DNA of 27,041 bases, from the IMG/VR virus record IMGVR_UViG_3300036827_000045, positions 1-27,041 of that record. One strand, 5' to 3'. The notes beneath the pieces are model-generated. The model was given only the letters and a program-made list of their open reading frames with translations. It had not been told where the DNA came from and did no database searches. The position numbers and the translations under genes are program-made. This stretch comes from a virus. Below, piece by piece: positions 8,418 through 25,229 of this stretch (positions are counted from its first letter, which is position 1; each line of letters begins with the position of its first letter).

Positions 8418-8581
8418 CAATGCTTGCCATTCGGCGGCAGGTGCAGCGTCGTACCCGGCACAGCCTTGTCGGCCGGCGCGTGTACATCGCCTTGCTGCCG
8501 GTGTTTTTCGAGGGCATCGACGCGCGCGACCAGCACCTTCAATGCTTGTTCGAGCACGTCGATGCGTTCGTAGGGCGTCAT
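8417..8581 (-). CDS. Small coiled-coil protein, unknown function
   Basis: A 54-residue protein: [20 protein letters not shown] starts a heptad-like helix that runs to about residue 28 ([10 protein letters not shown]), followed by a short polar tail. Its ATG overlaps the stop of the collagen-like gene (ATGA) and its stop overlaps the next ATG (TGATG). The architecture suggests an oligomer-forming helix, perhaps a partner of the neighbouring 62-residue helical protein. This is inference. Confidence 0.65.
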
Positions 8582-8982
8582 CCGATGATCCCTGTGCCGC
8601 CAGTCGGACCCGTTGCGCCCGTTGCACCAGCAGGACCGACAGGAGCCGGACCGACGTTGCCGGTAGTGCCCGTGTTCGCCGTCTTGCCGACTGCGCCCAG
8701 GTGACCGACTGCGCCTGCCACACCCGTATTGCCGGTTAGACCCGTGAGCCCGGTGACGCCGGTGCCCTGGATCGCGCCGAGGTGACCACCAGCACCGGTC
8801 GCGCCGTTGGCCCAGTTGAAGCCCGCGCGCAGTAGGCCCGCCGAATACGCGGACTGCGGAATGGTCAGCAGCACGCCGCCACTGACCGGCACCAGCGGAT
8901 AGGCGATGCCATCGGCGCAGACGTGCGATGTCACCGGCGGGAAATATGCGCTGTTGCTCGAAAACAGAACAAGGTTCGCCAT
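8578..8982 (-). CDS. Collagen-like repeat protein (second of pair)
   Basis: A 134-residue protein. Residues 1-58 form a compact non-repetitive head domain ([20 protein letters not shown], ending [14 protein letters not shown]). From there on nearly every third residue is Gly, many triplets being G-x-T or G-T-x (for example [16 protein letters not shown]), as in bacterial and phage collagen-like trimers, with breaks such as GHLGA. Such proteins form triple helices as fibres or head decorations. Thr in the Y-position is typical of the phage type. It follows a related gene, with which it shares head-then-repeat architecture. The ATG overlaps nothing upstream and lies 12 nt after the first copy's stop. 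Confidence 0.8.
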
Positions 8983-8994
8983 AGTCGCCCCCGC

Positions 8995-9372
8995 TTACAG
9001 GCCAGTCGGCCCGGTATTGCCCGTGGCGCCCGTTGGCCCAGTCACACCCGTTCCGCCCGTGCCACCGATCGCACCAGCTGCGCCGGTTGCACCGGTTAAG
9101 CCGGTCAGGCCTGTTGCACCCGTGCCGCCCGTACCACCTGTTCCGCCTGTGCCACCAACGCCGCCAGTGCCACCGGTATTGCCCGTGTTGCCGGTCAATC
9201 CCGTGCCGCCCGTAACGCCTGCGCCGAAACTCCACCCGGCCGCGAAGATGTCGCGCGGGATGGCGCCATTCGGCATGACGACCTGGCTCGAAGCGACCGC
9301 ATAAAATACGCCGTCCGTGCCGAGAATTCCGCCGCCGGTGTAGCCAGAAGGTTGATTCAGGGTGACGTTCAT
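8995..9372 (-). CDS. Collagen-like repeat protein (first of pair)
   Basis: A 125-residue protein with a head domain of about 52 residues ([20 protein letters not shown], later [18 protein letters not shown]) and then about 70 residues of uninterrupted Gly-X-Thr-type triplets. The head ends in a motif (aGWSFGaG) like that of its neighbour ([11 protein letters not shown]), so the two are probably diverged paralogs. The ATG has a good AAGGGAAG site. Location between terminase and portal suggests a structural, perhaps capsid-decorating, role. The repeats also create high-G+C DNA in which long spurious frames appear on the other strand. Confidence 0.82.
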
Positions 9373-9382
9373 TGCTTCCCTT

Positions 9383-10750
9383 TCATGCCGGCCAGCCGGC
9401 CTGCGTTCGAGTGGTTGATGCAGTGATAGGCACGACCGGCTGCGCTTGTACTGCCGCAAGCCGCTCGTAGTAGCGGTACATTCCCATATCGGATTCATCT
9501 GACAATTCGGTAAGCGCCCAGACCAGCGCATCCATGCGGTCAGGCGAAAAGGGCGATGTCAGCGGGTCGTAATCGCACATCTGGTCCTCAAGCTTCGGAA
9601 AGCTTCCGACATGATGCACGCGGCCTTGCTCGTACAGCGCAGCGATGGGTTCGGCGCGGATCATCTTGCCGCGCGATGCAGTGACGGATTTGTAACTGAC
9701 GTTGGCGTCGACGGTGCGGATGGTGAGCTCGACCATCTCGCCGCCGTTGTTTGTTTCGGCAATGAGGCGATCGGCCTTGTGATCGCGATAGCATTTCACC
9801 GCAGCCTTGGCCCATAGGTCAGGCGATGCGATCAACGAAACGTCCGCGACGACGTAGAAGTGATCATCCGTACCTTGGCCGACAGCGACTATACCGGTTT
9901 CGTCCGAGTCTTCGCGCGACGTAACGGCAGGATCGACAGCGACGACAACACGCTTGAATCCTGGCGCACCCCCAACGCGCGTCGCATCGATCTGCTTGCG
10001 CTGCCAGAGTGCACCGGGATTGTCATCGAGCAATTCGGCGTTGAGTTCCTGGCGCCCGAGTCGCGTCCCTTCGTACTTGCGCACAACCGAAGCGTAGAAC
10101 GCCGCGGCGAGGTTTGATCTGTTTTCATAACTCGTCCCGCGAGTGACGACACAATAAGGATTCTTGAGCAGGTCTTTGACCAGTGGAGTCGGTCGCGGTG
10201 TAGTGGTTATGATCGCTTGCGGTGCATGGCCCAAACGCAAGCCGAACATCGCTTGGTCCCAGGCTTCGGGATAGCGCCATGCGCCGAGTTCATCGGCCCA
10301 CAATTTCTCGTGCTGCTTGTTGCGCAAACGCTCGGGCTCTTCTGCGGTGAAGATGAGCGAGCGGCAACCATTCGGCCACGTCAGACCGCGTTCGCGACTG
10401 TAGCTTGGGCGTTCGTCATTCGGACATATCGCGAGGATGCCGGACTCGCCTTCGATCATTGCGGCGCGGGCATCTTCAGCTGTGGGGCCGATCAGGTTGA
10501 CGTAGCGAAATTTGCGCGCCCACTCGCGCACTTGCTCGGCGCCAGTACGCGTCTTGCCGAAACCGCGACCAGCCATCAACAGCCAGTAGGTTTTCAGGCT
10601 TGCAGCGAATTCAGGCGGTGGAAACTGCGACGGCCGCGCCCAGAACGACCAGTCAAACCACAGGCTTGCCCGTTCCGTTTCCGTTAAGCTTGACCAGTTC
10701 CGGCGCTGAACTTCGATCGGTAGCGCCCTGAAACAGTTTGCTTTCGACAA
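9383..10750 (-). CDS. Terminase large subunit
   Basis: A 455-residue packaging ATPase-nuclease. Visible motifs: Walker [10 protein letters not shown] (residues 60-68), Walker B LWADE (150-154, with acidic D153/E154), and nuclease acids in VAVDPAV (D273), AETNNGG (E332) and [10 protein letters not shown] near residue 427. Length fits the family. Its frame needs the TTG at 10750, since no other start occurs before the LLMAGRG motif and the conserved [11 protein letters not shown] segment would be lost otherwise. This creates a 98-nt overlap with the small terminase gene. The ribosome site (CAGGA) is close to the TTG. Confidence 0.92.
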
Positions 10751-11121: not shown

Positions 11122-11508
11122 TTATTCGGCCTGGATGGCTTGGCGTTCGGCTTCGGCTTCTGGACCGCGCCGGTATCCTTCCCGGATGCGTTCAATCGCA
11201 GCGGCTGGGCTATAGTTCGGGCATACCGGGAAAGCCTTGATGCTTTCCTCGACAATCCGAGCGCCGTGGCTGGCATCGTCGCAGCCGAAATGCCCGCGGC
11301 AATACCAGGACGGGGAACCTTTGGTATCCCCCGAAATTCCGCCCGCATACCGGCACCGATCGCCCGACGAAATCCAGTGGCACCGCAGGTAGTCGGCATC
11401 GGCACCCGAGGCGATCCTGACCATCGGTGCCATGCGCCATCCGCACTTGCATGACTTCGCCCGAAAGGCAATGTCGTCGCCGCACTCGGGGCAATTTTTA
11501 GTCTGCAT
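11122..11508 (-). CDS. Zinc-ribbon protein, unknown function
   Basis: A 128-residue protein. The N-terminus carries NCPECGDD and SCKCGWR, a classic treble-clef/zinc-ribbon knuckle pair, followed by a Cys/His-bearing middle (LRCHW, DRCRYAG, WYCRGHFGC, VCPNYSP) that could hold a second metal site. The C-terminal tail is a charged helix rich in Glu/Arg. The ATG at 11508 lies inside the end of the replication gene (11-nt overlap) with GGAGCAGGAAA upstream. Probably binds nucleic acid. It sits between the replication protein and terminase, which is the position of antitermination or DNA-processing proteins in other phages; this is only positional. Confidence 0.7.
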   Translation of the reverse strand: MQTKNCPECGDDIAFRAKSCKCGWRMAPMVRIASGADADYLRCHWISSGDRCRYAGGISGDTKGSPSWYCRGHFGCDDASHGARIVEESIKAFPVCPNYSPAAAIERIREGYRRGPEAEAERQAIQAE

Positions 11509-12280
11509 TTTCCTGCTCCATCTCGGCATCGGTTGGCACTTCCCCGACGTACTGCGCGAACTTCTCGGCCCCGAAAAGCGTGGCTGGTCTGAGGTACTCG
11601 GCCATCTTCGGATCGTCTTGCCATCGTCGCCAACGTCGCATGATCACCGCCTTGCAGTCGCTTGGGGTGTAGCCCTCCTTGAGCCTGGCAATGATCGGCT
11701 TGAGCGTGCTCGCTGTAGGTCTAAAGCTTCGCCCCGTTTTTTTGTTCAAAAACAACAGCAAATCGGCTGCTACTGCGGTGTTGCCGTTGATTTTGGCCTT
11801 TGCTGGCAGTGATTCGGTGTCGACCTTTGGCGAAGCCGAAGTCGACAATGGGTTTAAGGTCTTTTGGTTCTTGGTTACTGGCTTATGGTTATTGGCTGGC
11901 ATTGCCATCGCATTGCGTTCGCTATGCGTTCGCATTGCGTCTGCATTGCCAACGTATTGCAGATCGTCCCATCGAACGGCGGCTGCTGCTGATGCCTTCG
12001 CAGACTTTTCCCTGTACTTGGCGACCTCCTCATCGCAGCGATTGTGGTGGAATCCGTCCGGGTTTTCGGTGAAAAACTTGCGCAGGCAGTGTTCGACCGC
12101 ATCATTGTCGGCTTTGTCTCGACATCGCAGTGAGCCGTAGAGGTCAACCCGATCGACTGGCAATGGCTTTTCGTCGCTGTAGTACAGGTCGATCATGCGG
12201 CGATAGGCGCCGTCCTGGCGCATGGTTAACCCTATGGTTTTTTTTAGGTAATCTCCTATGTGATGGGGGTAATGGTTCAC
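11498..12280 (-). CDS. DUF1376-type phage replication protein
   Basis: A 260-residue protein. The N-terminal part (HYPHHIGDYLKKTIGLT, then RMIDLYYSDEKPLP) matches DUF1376 (YdaU-like). The C-terminal part (GRSFRPTASTLKPIIARLKEGYT, then CKAVIMRRWRRWQDDP and YLRPATLFG) matches the conserved phage C-terminal domain TIGR02220. This architecture is found in replication initiators/helicase recruiters. The two domains are joined by a variable linker (about 95-160) whose DNA holds six 11-bp iterons. The start is GTG in a GTGA overlap with the winged-helix gene, with GGAAAATGC upstream. An A8 run on the coding strand encodes LKK near residue 13. Confidence 0.85.
   Translation of the reverse strand: MNHYPHHIGDYLKKTIGLTMRQDGAYRRMIDLYYSDEKPLPVDRVDLYGSLRCRDKADNDAVEHCLRKFFTENPDGFHHNRCDEEVAKYREKSAKASAAAAVRWDDLQYVGNADAMRTHSERNAMAMPANNHKPVTKNQKTLNPLSTSASPKVDTESLPAKAKINGNTAVAADLLLFLNKKTGRSFRPTASTLKPIIARLKEGYTPSDCKAVIMRRWRRWQDDPKMAEYLRPATLFGAEKFAQYVGEVPTDAEMEQENAD
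11850..11898. other. T/G-rich stretch beside iterons, candidate unwinding element
   Basis: On the plus strand this segment is rich in T and G with repeated TTGGTT-type units and few C, in contrast to surrounding GC-rich DNA. It directly adjoins the six iterons on their downstream side relative to the replication gene. The same order (iterons, then easily melted DNA) is seen in the lambda origin inside gene O. Function as an origin is inferred. Confidence 0.45.
11899..11964. repeat. Six tandem 11-bp iterons (candidate replication origin)
   Basis: Contiguous 11-bp units begin at 11899, 11910, 11921, 11932, 11943 and 11954. Four units start with GCATTGC exactly; the third has GCTATGC and the sixth GTATTGC. 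The period is one helical turn and is not a multiple of three, so the repeat does not arise from a protein repeat. It lies in the linker-coding part of the replication protein gene, the place where the lambda O iterons lie in O. Binding by the encoded protein is inferred. Confidence 0.7.
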
Positions 12281-14996: not shown

Positions 14997-15121
14997 GACT
15001 GCCGAAGACGATTGCCCTTTGGCTGGCGCTTCGCAAGACCACGACGCCGGAGGAACGCAAGAAGGTTAAGCGATCCATCGGCAACCGGTACGCCAAGCGC
15101 AAGGCGAAGGCAGCAGCGTGA
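14993..15121 (+). CDS. Very basic miniprotein
   Basis: A 42-residue protein (VRLPKTIALWLALRKTTTPE, then basic helix ERKKVKRSIGNRYAKRKAKA). It starts at GTG overlapping the previous TGA and ends overlapping the GTG of the nuclease gene. The high Lys/Arg content suggests nucleic-acid binding, possibly with the adjoining nuclease or RecT-like protein. Inference only. Confidence 0.65.
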   Translation: MRLPKTIALWLALRKTTTPEERKKVKRSIGNRYAKRKAKAAA

Positions 15122-15927
15122 GCGAGCCGGCCATTCTCGGCACGATCCGCGCATCATCCTGGCCGACGTTGTTCGATTGTAGCCTGCGCTGGTACTACCA
15201 GAACGTGCTCGGACTACGCACGCCGTCGCACGGGAAGTCTCAGCTTGGAACGGCGCTGCACAAGGCGACGGCGGTCTATGACGCGCCGGGGTTGGTAGGC
15301 GCGCCTGGGAGCCTCGGTGAAGCCACAGACGCGCTCATGCAGACGCTGCAACAGCCGCAGCACCCGGTCGAGTGGGATGACGACTTCAAGCCGGCGAAGG
15401 CCGAAGCGATTGGGCTGGCGCTGACCAAGAACTACGCGGAGCAAATCGCGCCGAAACACGAATACCGCGCGATCGAGGTCAACTGCAACGCCCTCGACAT
15501 CACGACCGAAGCCGGCGTGGTCCGCATCAGCGGCACGACTGACCGCGTGCGCGTTACCGAGGACGGGCGCGAGGGCATCAGCGACATTAAGAGCGGAGGA
15601 CGCGCGGTTGCCGCCGATGGCCGCGCCGTCACCAAGGGCCACCATCTGCAAACAGGGATTTATCGCATTATGGCCGAGGCGGCGCTTGAGCGCGTATTCG
15701 ACGCGCCCGACGAAATCATTGGCTTGCAGGTTGCCGCCAACGCCCGCGTAGGCTGTGCAGAAATCTCCGATAGCCGCACGCCGCTGGTCGGCGACGAGGA
15801 CGCGCCTGGTCTGATCGAAATGGCGGCGCGCATGCTCAAGAGCGGGATATTCCCGCCTAACCCGCGTTCGATGTTGTGCTCGCCGACGTACTGCGGCGGG
15901 TATTCCCGCTGCAAATTCCACGACTGA
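15118..15927 (+). CDS. PD-(D/E)XK nuclease, Cas4/RecB type with Fe-S cysteines
   Basis: A 269-residue protein. GTALHKA (His), SGTTDRV (Asp) and GISDIKSGG (DxK) followed by QTGIYRIM (Gln) are the ordered active-site motifs of the RecB/Cas4 (PDDEXK_1) family. One Cys at residue 21 (LFDCSLRWYY) and three near the C-terminus (LCSPTYCGGYSRCKF) match the four-Cys Fe-S cluster of Cas4/AddB nucleases. It begins with GTG in a GTGA overlap. With the RecT-like gene 10 nt downstream it would form an exonuclease-annealase pair for phage recombination, like Exo-Bet or RecE-RecT. Confidence 0.88.
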   Translation: MSEPAILGTIRASSWPTLFDCSLRWYYQNVLGLRTPSHGKSQLGTALHKATAVYDAPGLVGAPGSLGEATDALMQTLQQPQHPVEWDDDFKPAKAEAIGLALTKNYAEQIAPKHEYRAIEVNCNALDITTEAGVVRISGTTDRVRVTEDGREGISDIKSGGRAVAADGRAVTKGHHLQTGIYRIMAEAALERVFDAPDEIIGLQVAANARVGCAEISDSRTPLVGDEDAPGLIEMAARMLKSGIFPPNPRSMLCSPTYCGGYSRCKFHD

Positions 15928-15937
15928 GGAGATCAAA

Positions 15938-16861
15938 ATGACAACCGCATCGGCAAATATAGCCGACCTGAAACACGGCCCGACGCCGCGAGAATCACGA
16001 CTACCGGCAGTCCAGCCCGGCTTCGGCGACCTGCAATCGTTCGAACTCTTGCAGCGCGGCGCGAGGCTGCTGGCGGCGTCGCCGTTGGTGCCGGAAATAT
16101 ACCGCGCCGGGGATGGCGCTGGCGTCGCCTCATGCGTCATCGCGCTAAACATGGCGCTGCGCATGAAGGCCGACCCGCTGATGGTGATGCAGAACCTTTA
16201 CGTCGTGCATGGACGCCCGGCATGGTCGGCGCAGTTCCTAATTGCCTGCTTCAATCAATGCGGGCGATTCTCTGCGATCCGCTATCGCTGGCAGGGCACG
16301 CAGCCGACCAGCGACTGGGGTTGCCGCGCCTACGCCAAGGAATTGCAGACTGGCGACGAAATCGTCGGCCCGCTGGTGACGATGGCGACGGCCAAGGCCG
16401 AAGGCTGGATCGAGCGCAAGGGATCGAAATGGCAGACGATACCCGAACTCATGCTGACCTATCGTGCAGCCGCCTGGATGGTTCGCACGCACGCGCCGGA
16501 ACTAGCGATGGGGCTGCCGACCGCCGAAGAAATCAACGACTACATCGACGTGACGCCTCAACGCGAGCCGTTGACGCCAGAGGGCATCAAGGCTGCAGAG
16601 CACGCGACCGGCGCAACGGACAATTTTTCGCAAGGATTGCCGGGAGACAAAGGGGCAACGCAGTCCAACGTCGGTGCGGTCGGCGACAGCGGCCGCACCG
16701 ACGGCCCCGCCTATGCAGAAATAGCAGACAAGATTAACCGCGCAAAGTCGCACGATGACGTTGACGCAGCCGTATCACTCATCCACGCCAGTTTGCCAGC
16801 GCCGCAGCGTCTAGAACTAGCCGACCTCGCCAGGGCGCAGCATATTTCGATCGGCGCCTAA
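15938..16861 (+). CDS. recT: RecT-like single-strand annealing protein
   Basis: A 307-residue protein. The core (VASCVIALNMALRMKADPLMV, then VVHGRPAWSAQFLIACFNQCG and KWQTIPELMLTYRAAAWMVRTHAPELAMGLPTAEE) has the conserved order of RecT-type annealases that work on phage ends with an exonuclease partner. The C-terminal third is variable and helix-rich, ending in a possible protein-contact tail. The ATG has a strong AGGAG site. The preceding Cas4/RecB nuclease supports the call. Confidence 0.82.
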   Translation: MTTASANIADLKHGPTPRESRLPAVQPGFGDLQSFELLQRGARLLAASPLVPEIYRAGDGAGVASCVIALNMALRMKADPLMVMQNLYVVHGRPAWSAQFLIACFNQCGRFSAIRYRWQGTQPTSDWGCRAYAKELQTGDEIVGPLVTMATAKAEGWIERKGSKWQTIPELMLTYRAAAWMVRTHAPELAMGLPTAEEINDYIDVTPQREPLTPEGIKAAEHATGATDNFSQGLPGDKGATQSNVGAVGDSGRTDGPAYAEIADKINRAKSHDDVDAAVSLIHASLPAPQRLELADLARAQHISIGA

Positions 16862-22777: not shown

Positions 22778-23028
22778 TGCTGCACGAAGCCGAATTGATC
22801 GAGTTCGTACTGGTCGAGATTGCCACTTCAGCGAAGCGCTACGGCCCGCCAGCATCGAGTCACGAGTCCTATGGCGTGCTCTGCGAGGAGGTCGCAGAAC
22901 TGCTCGACGCGATCCGCAGCAATGATTTGTCGAGCATCAAAACCGAGTCGATCCAAGTCGCCGCCGTGGCGTTGCGCTTGGCCGACGCCTGTCTTACGCC
23001 GGAATTTATCAAACGGAGCAGTAAATGA
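22777..23028 (+). CDS. MazG-like nucleotide pyrophosphohydrolase
   Basis: An 83-residue protein. SYGVLCEEVAELLDAIRSN contains the EExxE metal motif and ESIQVAAVALRLA the second helix of MazG-like four-helix proteins. In phages these often cleave nucleoside triphosphates, affecting pool balance or alarmones. The GTG start is in the hairpin described separately. It is compact relative to full MazG but normal for phage versions. ATGA overlap with the helicase. Confidence 0.68.
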   Translation: MLHEAELIEFVLVEIATSAKRYGPPASSHESYGVLCEEVAELLDAIRSNDLSSIKTESIQVAAVALRLADACLTPEFIKRSSK

Positions 23029-25229
23029 GCTACGCTGATTTCCTTGCGGCGAAGGCGATACGAGATCCGCTGACCGGACTCGACATTATCCCGCCGCTCA
23101 ATCCGGCGCTATTCGATTTCCAGCTGGACATCGTCGCCTGGGCATTGAAACGTGGACGGGCTGCCATCTTCGCCGACTGTGGTATGGGCAAGACTCCGAT
23201 GCAGTTGGAATGGGCTAGGCACATTTCAGGCCGCGTGCTGATCCTTGCGCCCCTAGCGGTATCGTCTCAGACCGTCCGCGAAGCCGCCAAATTCAACGTG
23301 CCGGACGTGGCCTATGCGCGCTCCGGCGACTCGGCAACATCGCGCATCGTCGTCACCAATTACGAGATGTTGCAGCACTTCGACGTTGGCGACTTTGCCG
23401 GAATCGTGCTTGACGAATCTAGCATATTGAAGGCCTACGATGGCAAGACTAGGACAGCGATCATCGAGGCCTTCGCGCAAACGCCATTCCGTCTCGCCTG
23501 CACCGCAACCCCGGCCCCGAATGATTACATGGAGCTCGGGAATCACGCTGAGTTCCTAGGCACCTTGTCGCGGACCGAAATGCTCTCGACCTATTTTGTT
23601 CACGACGGCGGGGAAACGCAGAAGTGGCGACTCAAGGGTCACGCGCAGCAGGACTTTTGGGCATGGCTCTGTTCCTGGGCCGTAATGATCCGCAAGCCCT
23701 CAGACCTCGGATATTCGGATGACGGCTTCACTCTCCCGCCGATTGAGTATATCGAACACGTCGTAGGCGCGACCAAGGCGCAGGATGGCTATCTGTTCCC
23801 GCTGCCGGCCAACGGATTGCAGGAACGGATCGCGGCGCGCCGTGACACGCTCAAAGAGCGCGTCACCGAAGCCGCGTCCACGGTCTGCGCTGATCCTGGA
23901 CAATGGATCATCTGGTGCAATCTGAACTCGGAATCGCAGGCGCTAGGCTCCGCTCTGATCGGGGCGGTAGAAGTCACTGGCTCGGACTCGGTCGAGTTCA
24001 AGGAAAAGGCATTGCTTGATTTTATCGACGGCAGGACTCGCATCCTGATAAGCAAACCGTCGATATTTGGCTTCGGTATGAACCTGCAGAACTGCGCGAA
24101 CATGGCCTTCGTCGGGCTGTCGGACTCCTGGGAAGCGTACTATCAGGCCGTCAGAAGATGCTGGCGGTTCGGCCAAACGAAGCCGGTCACGGTCCACGTC
24201 ATCACGGCGGATATTGAAGGTGCCGTTGTCTCAAACATCAAGCGCAAGGAAACCGACGCGGCCAACATGGCGCAGGAGATGCTTTCACACATGCATGATC
24301 TAAACGAACAAGCGCTGAAGGGCGCGACGGTAAGACAACGGGCCGAGTACGAGACGGATAAGGCGGAAGGTGAGGACTGGACTCTATACCTTGGAGATTG
24401 CGTCGACATTGCCAAAACGCTGCCCGATGAGTCGCTGCACTATTCGATCTTCAGCCCGCCGTTTTCGTCGCTCTACACCTACTCCGCGAGCGACCGCGAC
24501 CTAGGCAACTGCCGAGACGATGATGTATTTATGGAGCACTTCGGCTTTCTGATCGCAGACCTGTACCGAGCGCTGATGCCGGGAAGGCTTCTGAGCTTTC
24601 ACTGCATGAACCTACCGACCTCGAAACAGCATCACGGCTACATCGGGATTCGAGACTTTCGCGGTGATCTGATTCGACTATTCCAGTCCTACGGATTCAT
24701 CTTCCATTCCGAAGTCGTGATCTGGAAGGACCCGGTGACAGCGATGCAGCGGACCAAAGCGCTCGGGCTGCTGCATAAACAGATCAAGAAGGACTCGTGT
24801 ATGTCGCGGCAGGGCGTGCCGGATTATCTGGTGACGATGCGAAAGCCAGGAGAAAACCCGGAGCGAGTGACGCACACGAACGAAGACTTCCCGGTGCAGT
24901 TGTGGCAGAACTACGCTTCTCCGGTCTGGATGGACATCAATCCGAGCGAAACGCTGCAATTCCGTAGCGCGCGGGAACACGACGACGAACGCCATATTTG
25001 CCCGCTGCAGCTTGAGGTTATCCGCCGAGCGTTGAAGCTATGGACGAATCCAGGCGATACCGTGTTCAGCCCGTTCGCCGGGATAGGGTCCGAGGGCTAC
25101 TGTGCCTTGCAGGCGCAGCGGAAGTTCATCGGAGCGGAACTTAAACCGTCCTACTGGCGACAAGCCTGTATCAACCTTGGCCGGGCACGGCAGGATCAAG
25201 GCCTGCTGCTGGAAACGGACGCTGCCTAG
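23025..25229 (+). CDS. SNF2-type helicase fused to amino-methyltransferase
   Basis: A 734-residue fusion. Residues 1-440: superfamily 2 (SNF2-like) ATPase with Walker A DCGMGKT (51-57), Walker B LDESS (129-133) and a C-terminal motif VI AVRRCWRFGQ near 375-385. Residues about 455-734: a beta-class amino-methyltransferase with target motif IV SPPF (about 475) before motif I SPFAGIGSEGY (about 680). SPPF favours N4-cytosine or N6-adenine methylation. No endonuclease motif is visible. It may be an ATP-driven methyltransferase protecting phage DNA, or have another role. ATGA overlap with the MazG-like gene. Confidence 0.88.
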   Translation: MSYADFLAAKAIRDPLTGLDIIPPLNPALFDFQLDIVAWALKRGRAAIFADCGMGKTPMQLEWARHISGRVLILAPLAVSSQTVREAAKFNVPDVAYARSGDSATSRIVVTNYEMLQHFDVGDFAGIVLDESSILKAYDGKTRTAIIEAFAQTPFRLACTATPAPNDYMELGNHAEFLGTLSRTEMLSTYFVHDGGETQKWRLKGHAQQDFWAWLCSWAVMIRKPSDLGYSDDGFTLPPIEYIEHVVGATKAQDGYLFPLPANGLQERIAARRDTLKERVTEAASTVCADPGQWIIWCNLNSESQALGSALIGAVEVTGSDSVEFKEKALLDFIDGRTRILISKPSIFGFGMNLQNCANMAFVGLSDSWEAYYQAVRRCWRFGQTKPVTVHVITADIEGAVVSNIKRKETDAANMAQEMLSHMHDLNEQALKGATVRQRAEYETDKAEGEDWTLYLGDCVDIAKTLPDESLHYSIFSPPFSSLYTYSASDRDLGNCRDDDVFMEHFGFLIADLYRALMPGRLLSFHCMNLPTSKQHHGYIGIRDFRGDLIRLFQSYGFIFHSEVVIWKDPVTAMQRTKALGLLHKQIKKDSCMSRQGVPDYLVTMRKPGENPERVTHTNEDFPVQLWQNYASPVWMDINPSETLQFRSAREHDDERHICPLQLEVIRRALKLWTNPGDTVFSPFAGIGSEGYCALQAQRKFIGAELKPSYWRQACINLGRARQDQGLLLETDAA

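Follow-up and report, generated by a model that had tools for sequence, protein, structure and literature searches.

Described Iteron-Based and Strand-Specific Origins

In phage lambda, the iterons are found inside the initiator gene O, between the N- and C-terminal domains of its product; the opening region follows directly on the same side, and the next gene is P. The AT-rich region is in addition a single-strand target of the O proteins of lambda and Stx phages (PMC7466680). A combination of double-stranded iterons with repeated motifs in the unwinding element is likewise found in the RK2 and F plasmids, whose respective initiators, TrfA and RepE, bind to one of the two strands of that element, TrfA requiring its repeats (PMC4081077). 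At the ori2 origin of Vibrio cholerae, the single-strand motif of RctB, 5'-(G/A)ATCA-3', is repeated in the unwinding element (PMC10797057), and at Bacillus oriC, on the host chromosome, DnaD reads one strand at a TnnT motif (PMC10201434). In the DnaA-trio and DnaD Recognition Element systems, short strand-specific motifs adjoin the initiator boxes. In plasmids, the iterons are usually found outside the rep gene; RctB belongs to a protein family other than DUF1376, and the ori2 iterons are not known to be intragenic.

DUF1376, which occurs in the phages and prophages of many bacteria, formally has no assigned function, and no description of DUF1376 origins was found in the open-licence literature. 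An active origin, oriJ, has been attributed to the Rac prophage, at the level of the whole prophage (PMC3945230). In E. coli K-12 it carries ydaU-ydaV, a DUF1376 gene followed by a gene for an ATP-binding protein.

The window, that is, the whole stretch of 27,041 bases of an IMG/VR phage contig analyzed here, carries a DUF1376 gene whose linker-coding DNA probably contains an intragenic phage replication origin, where the DUF1376 protein would bind iterons, an adjacent array would open and the helicase would be loaded.

The Putative Initiator Gene and its Linker

The product of the gene has two Pfam matches only, to PF07120 (DUF1376; E = 2.9e-26, 92.1 bits against a curated cut-off of 30.1), which places it in this family, and to PF09524 (Phg_2220_C; E = 6.4e-22). 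Neither Phage_rep_O nor a Rep family of the iteron-plasmid type (Rep_3/RepA_N) was thus found by Pfam, and the fold search gave no significant match to such Rep initiators. Its PHROG relatives are named 'primosomal protein' and 'replication initiation protein', and its C-terminal region weakly matches a DnaD-like loader PHROG. A PDB sequence search returned nothing, and a fold search with its AlphaFold model detected neither a significantly similar solved fold nor a significant DNA-binding match (best E = 0.41). The model has helices and a hairpin, and MarR, MotA, and DnaD-N were among the PDB matches, but none of these was significant, and a winged-helix assignment of DUF1376 was discarded.

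In several named relatives, the gene after DUF1376 encodes an AAA/IstB/P-loop ATPase or a DnaB helicase. No DnaB or DnaC gene was recognized on the window contig, which is a fragment. The slot that is the helicase-loader position in several relatives is occupied in the window by a gene for a 135-residue zinc-ribbon-like protein (11122-11529, minus strand), directly downstream of the initiator gene, and this protein could be a partner.

Table 1. Features of the putative initiator gene and of its linker, in window coordinates.
Feature	Coordinates	Strand	Remarks
Putative replication initiator gene (DUF1376 + Phg_2220_C)	11498..12280	-	260 aa, GTG start; Pfam and PHROG
DUF1376 core domain, aa 2-87	12020..12277	-	conserved across the family; not predictive of iteron class
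Putative iteron-recognition segment, aa 91-108	11957..12010	-	EKSAKASAAAAVRWDDLQ; peak of class prediction, helix end in AlphaFold model
Iteron 1 (gene direction), degenerate	11954..11964	-	+ strand GTATTGCAGAT; coding strand ATCTGCAATAC
Iteron 2	11943..11953	-	+ strand GCATTGCCAAC; coding strand GTTGGCAATGC
Iteron 3	11932..11942	-	+ strand GCATTGCGTCT; coding strand AGACGCAATGC
Iteron 4, degenerate	11921..11931	-	+ strand GCTATGCGTTC; coding strand GAACGCATAGC
Iteron 5	11910..11920	-	+ strand GCATTGCGTTC; coding strand GAACGCAATGC
Iteron 6, nearest the array, 1-nt gap	11899..11909	-	+ strand GCATTGCCATC; coding strand GATGGCAATGC
Period-7 CCA array, five units	11865..11897	-	AGCCA AACCA AGCCA AACCA AACCA; putative opening/helicase-loading element
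Hairpin-forming inverted repeat	11817..11847		TGTCGACCT...AAGTCGACA; directly 3' of array; fold; tentative third element
Phg_2220_C C-terminal domain, aa 177-245	11546..11752	-	Pfam

The linker between the two domains contains six abutting 11-bp units (11899-11964), four of them with an exact GCATTGC, so that on the coding strand the units end in GCAATGC or variants of it. Six contiguous iterons at this place, four with exact cores, had been claimed in the original prediction from inspection of the letters. The Pfam boundaries bear out the placement, and the units themselves are borne out by Tandem Repeats Finder, which detects them at periods 11 and 22, and by synonymous-codon shuffling: self-identity within the gene is highest at lag 11 (71% over 55 nt), and only 2 of 20,000 shuffles match this periodicity at any lag of 8-25 anywhere in the gene. 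Read on the coding strand, the linker comprises the codons of residues 91-108, the six iterons, of which the first overlaps the codons of residues 106-108, the 1-nt gap, the five array units, and the inverted repeat.

The interval 11850-11964 is thus made of two elements rather than one. The iterons had been said to lie next to T/G-rich DNA; such DNA is present, but it is more than T/G-rich, as TGG recurs on the plus strand at exact 7-bp steps (11865, 11872, 11879, 11886, and 11893), forming a conserved period-7 CCA array on the coding strand.

The position of the iterons relative to the domains, which had been likened to that in lambda O, agrees with the domain order and with the gene positions: nucleotides 349-433 of 900 for the four iterons of lambda O, and approximately 317-382 of 783 in the window. 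The putative opening element is also on the same side as in lambda, right after the iterons, and several relatives have a loader gene next, as P follows O. The designation as a lambda-O-type origin is therefore appropriate for the architecture (initiator domain first, then iterons and a putative opening element, and finally the C-terminal domain) but not for homology, given the lack of a Phage_rep_O match. In detail, the window iterons are 11 bp long and abutting, whereas those of lambda are 18-19 bp long at a spacing of ~20-24 bp, and the array is of CCA/TGG type and not AT-rich, in contrast to the A-rich lambda element. Unlike in lambda O, moreover, iteron classes vary here with a short protein segment. 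With RK2 oriV/TrfA and F/RepE the locus shares double-stranded iterons together with repeated motifs in a (here putative) unwinding element; however, the RK2 repeats are 13-mers in AT-rich DNA, and the protein family differs. The RctB motif resembles AACCA in length and perhaps in purpose, with ATCA in place of ACCA. As for Bacillus oriC, the likeness lies in short strand-specific motifs next to initiator sites, while the period and the strand logic differ from those of the TnnT motif or the 3-nt trios.

A Layout Common to the Family

The same layout was found in hundreds of related phages. Comparison of the linker DNA among relatives, which had been proposed as a check on the prediction, revealed repeats in the nearest relative, L242, and across the family. 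Among the first 39 relatives, many have 11-bp repeats followed by arrays of AACCAG (period 6) or of AACCAAG/TAACCAA (period 7). When IMG/VR was scanned, without regard to genes, for four AACCA units spaced by 7 bp, at least 120 stretches were returned; 112 of the 120 matches listed are in sense orientation within a DUF1376 open reading frame, and three more belong to genes cut by contig ends. AACCA at period 6 was rejected as a marker of DUF1376, since 96 of the 120 matches listed fall outside such genes, mostly in simple repeats.

An estimate free of selection on the pattern was obtained from 100 dereplicated DUF1376 genes picked by their N-terminal protein sequence alone, with an array defined as four or more [ACG]CC[AC] in succession at 6-7 nt. 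By this definition, an array is present in 79 of the 100 genes, whereas the number expected from synonymous shuffles is 14.4 and never exceeds 20. All of these arrays are on the coding strand, no antisense array being found in any of the 100. Array spacing varies between 6 and 7 and the number of units ranges from 4 to 9; CC, hence GG on the opposite strand, is kept in every unit, and the flanking A's are conserved at 92% before and 95% after it, positions that are restricted by the detection motif. The genes without AACCA mostly have CACCAGA, ACACCA, CCCATTA, or AGCCATA arrays instead. AACCA/CACCA arrays were also seen in other apparent phage initiators, namely in proteins that by eye are distantly DUF1376-like (L489, L519, L404, L414) and in one initiator of another type (L502), and the array may extend wider than DUF1376.

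Over the 88 nt that precede the array, peaks of self-identity fall at lags 11, 22, 33, and 44 (z = 16.5, 13.5, 7.6, and 4.5, respectively, relative to synonymous shuffles), with a best lag of 11 in 48 of 75 genes and of 22 in 11 of them. No such peak is found 3' of the array, and the iterons are thus confined to its 5' side. The register between the two elements is fixed: the last core is separated from the array by 1, 12, or 23 nt, i.e., 1 + 11n, in 45 of 54 class-0 genes and in 27 of 32 genes of the window class (classes are defined below). The window fits this family pattern in its 11-bp iterons, its array of period 6-7 and its gap. What was first noted at a single locus is a family-wide intragenic origin-like element, a larger find than the one first noted.

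Past the array, hairpins with stems of at least 6 occur within 70 nt in 24 of 75 family members, compared with 7.0 in shuffles, and a hairpin may tentatively be counted as a third element of the layout. A strong C6-loop-G6 hairpin, coding for PPNPPAGG, is located right past the array in L010, L013, L022, and L025-L039 (e.g., CCCCCCAACCCCCCTGCAGGGGGG); it is a candidate terminator, primosome hairpin, or priming hairpin.

DUF1376 genes are also carried by some plasmids of ~38-60 kb, which is compatible with autonomous replication but no proof of it. In the window, 250 nt separate the GC skew minimum from the element, but this minimum is far off in some of four complete phages checked; being inconsistent across these genomes, GC skew was set aside as evidence for an origin. 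It was the only uninformative one among the computational tests for DNA-level iterons of an intragenic origin, most of which gave favorable results.

Constraint at the DNA Level

The iterons and the array are constrained at the level of DNA. The peptides encoded by the linker vary (NQNQNQ, NQEPRTK, TPTPTP, HQTPDT), while the DNA motif and its spacing stay constant. The iteron period is 11 in independent genes, and each of the three codon phases is represented among the positions of the last core. Among homologues with clear synonymous divergence (137 pairs, which are non-independent), third-position identity amounts to 0.87-0.90 in the iterons and 0.95 in the array, the latter value being partly inflated because arrays are detected by pattern, as compared with 0.63-0.65 in the DUF1376 domain and downstream. 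Selection on the DNA had originally been deduced from a period that is not a multiple of three. That argument is weak by itself, but its conclusion holds because the core is found in all codon phases and synonymous sites are conserved.

Pairing of a Protein Segment with Iteron Classes

When the 60 nt preceding the array were grouped without supervision, six classes of iterons emerged, typified by GTTCAAC/GTTGAAC, GCAATGCGAAC (the window class), AACCCAG, GTCACG, CCCCTAAT, and AATCAGA. The classes number at least six; 31 of the 190 array genes are unclassified and class 3 is heterogeneous. To predict the class from the protein, only residues with codons outside the class-defining DNA were used, and only neighbors with core identity below 50%. 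The best match of the DUF1376 core gives the right class in 19% of cases, against 20% by chance, and GC content has no predictive power either (0.20). In contrast to the core, where windows of 16 residues reach 13-34%, the prediction rises to 54% for residues 85-100, 75% for 91-106, and 85% for 93-108. The AlphaFold model shows the segment as the last part of a long helix (80-109).

Motif expressions, written after inspection of the classes, fit most members: AG[KR]ASA in 50 of 59, SAxxRW in 30 of 34, NGKxGGRP in 32 of 33, a KRENEKER-like stretch in 14 of 15, G[KR]KGAA in 12 of 12, and SARxAN in 6 of 6. SAxxRW is that of the window class, and the window itself pairs the segment KASAAAAVRW with iterons of this class. 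The NGKxGGRP motif recalls an AT-hook.

At an equal core identity of 0.39, segment identity is 0.39 within classes and 0.18 between them, and third positions are saturated (0.27), so that the coupling between segment and iterons looks old and does not suggest recent joint transfer. As the segment adjoins the iterons, physical linkage could explain part of the association, the saturation of third positions notwithstanding. Class changes number at least 39 on the core tree of 159 tips. Here as in the other counts, the sequences carry no full phylogenetic weighting. A natural swap is provided by L234 and L055, with cores 86% identical: the former has SAAKRW with GCGAACGCAATGC and the latter NGKKGGRPK with AACCCGGTT-type repeats, and these differing segments and iterons are followed by nearly the same AACCAAGAACCA array. 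L165 is likewise 83-87% identical in its core to L248 and L246, and the exchange of its segment for a KEKERMRRHR-type basic stretch, together with differing repeats, has the appearance of a natural specificity swap.

By inspection, twelve named phages and the Rac ydaU gene, none of which was used to define the classes, also fit the pairing; the hosts of the named phages are Vibrio, Thalassomonas, Methylophilaceae, Moraxella, Bordetella, and Acinetobacter. In Rac ydaU (L161:5570-5690), an AGKASV segment goes with GTGTTCAAAC-type repeats, 11-bp GTGTTCAAACA/GATGTTGAAGT repeats being followed by a ACAGATAAAGAT array and then by CCCCCCC...GGGGG; unlike that of the window, the array is of ACAGAT/AAAGAT type and not CCA. 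The pairing is consistent with a short recognition helix that would be read against its own adjacent iterons.

A Model for Origin Function and its Alternatives

The elements, their register, their constraint as DNA, their conservation in the family, and the coupling of segment and class are all supported by the computation. On this basis we infer binding of the protein to the iterons, strand opening, loading, and origin activity, as follows. The DUF1376 protein would bind the 11-bp iterons through the segment of residues ~91-108, which would read the iteron sequence, whereas the core would supply functions common to all members. Because the units lie one DNA turn apart, the protomers would be aligned on the same face of the DNA, and the assembled complex might then open the DNA beside the last of these units. 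With its fixed register relative to the iterons, the CCA/TGG array would be the opening element, one strand of which the initiator, or else a conserved partner, may hold single-stranded. Helicase and loader would be delivered to this strand, the candidates being the DnaC/IstB-like ATPase or the DnaB encoded next door in several relatives, and perhaps the DnaD-like C-terminal domain here.

The origin may further be modular, and we judge it somewhat more likely than not that a constant single-strand loading array is combined with exchangeable cassettes, in each of which ~16 codons for a recognition helix are placed beside their own 11-bp iterons, with at least six specificities exchanged dozens of times between cores. 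The combination of a constant array with a variable segment-iteron pair is previously undescribed in the open-licence literature.

The iterons might instead be an operator through which the DUF1376 protein represses its own gene, the origin being elsewhere. Autoregulation is common for arrays of binding sites in or near genes, plasmid iteron initiators do both, and the occurrence of units in both orientations (GTTCAAC/GTTGAAC) is as expected of operators bound as DNA. Nevertheless, an operator accounts neither for the conserved one-strand CCA array in fixed register 3' of the iterons nor for the excess of hairpins, and a site in mid-gene past the N-terminal domain is where lambda has its ori, which makes this reading very unlikely. 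Action at the level of the mRNA, by a structure or a protein-bound RNA that controls translation, would suit an array found exclusively on the coding strand, as well as the hairpins that follow it in some genes; however, a helical period of 11 bp and a register of 1, 12, or 23 nt are typical of double-stranded DNA sites, and an RNA motif is not expected to tolerate both unit orientations, so that control of translation appears extremely improbable.

The array could also act through its TGG strand, with GG tracts at 6-7 nt forming a two-layer G-quadruplex that drives opening, in place of a recognized single-strand motif. The GG in every unit and the presence of at least four units in most arrays would allow for this. 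It seems nonetheless highly unlikely, in view of flanking A's nearly as conserved as the CC within the limits set by the detection motif, of a spacing that switches between 6 and 7, and of unit numbers from four to nine rather than four; besides, two-layer quadruplexes with loops of 4-5 nt are weak. Lastly, selection might act on flexible protein linkers such as NQNQ, NQEPRTK, or TPTP, the DNA repeats arising by replication slippage, and AACCA at 6-bp spacing does occur in unrelated low-complexity genes, as seen in the period-6 scan. The changing peptides under a constant DNA motif, the use of all codon phases, and the frozen third positions led us to reject peptide composition as the cause, and we give slippage in low-complexity linkers the lowest probability of all. 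The preferred reading remains the intragenic origin, as originally proposed.

Broader Implications and Other Features of the Window

Origin recognition is a candidate job for DUF1376, and if it is confirmed, the sequence could be used to locate the origins of numerous phage genomes. Six or more paired peptide and iteron specificities are available for matching short protein segments to short DNA sites, which might amount to a compact, readable protein-DNA recognition code, and the exchange of cassettes might be a means of escape from origin incompatibility between phages. The CCA array would be a candidate conserved strand-specific loading motif, to be set beside the DnaA-trio, the DnaD element, and the RctB ATCA repeats. 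DNA opening by an iteron-bound initiator and placement of the helicase can be tested in small systems. One of these is Rac ydaU in E. coli K-12, which is convenient to handle in the laboratory and would be a test case for oriJ.

Elsewhere in the window, collagen-like GxT/GxN repeats are present in open reading frames past the terminase gene (8578-9531, minus strand). A PD-(D/E)XK exonuclease gene next to that of a RecT-like annealing protein forms a recombination module (15118-16861, plus strand), and a 734-residue fusion combines an SNF2/helicase-like region with an N6/N4 DNA methylase (23025-25229, plus strand).
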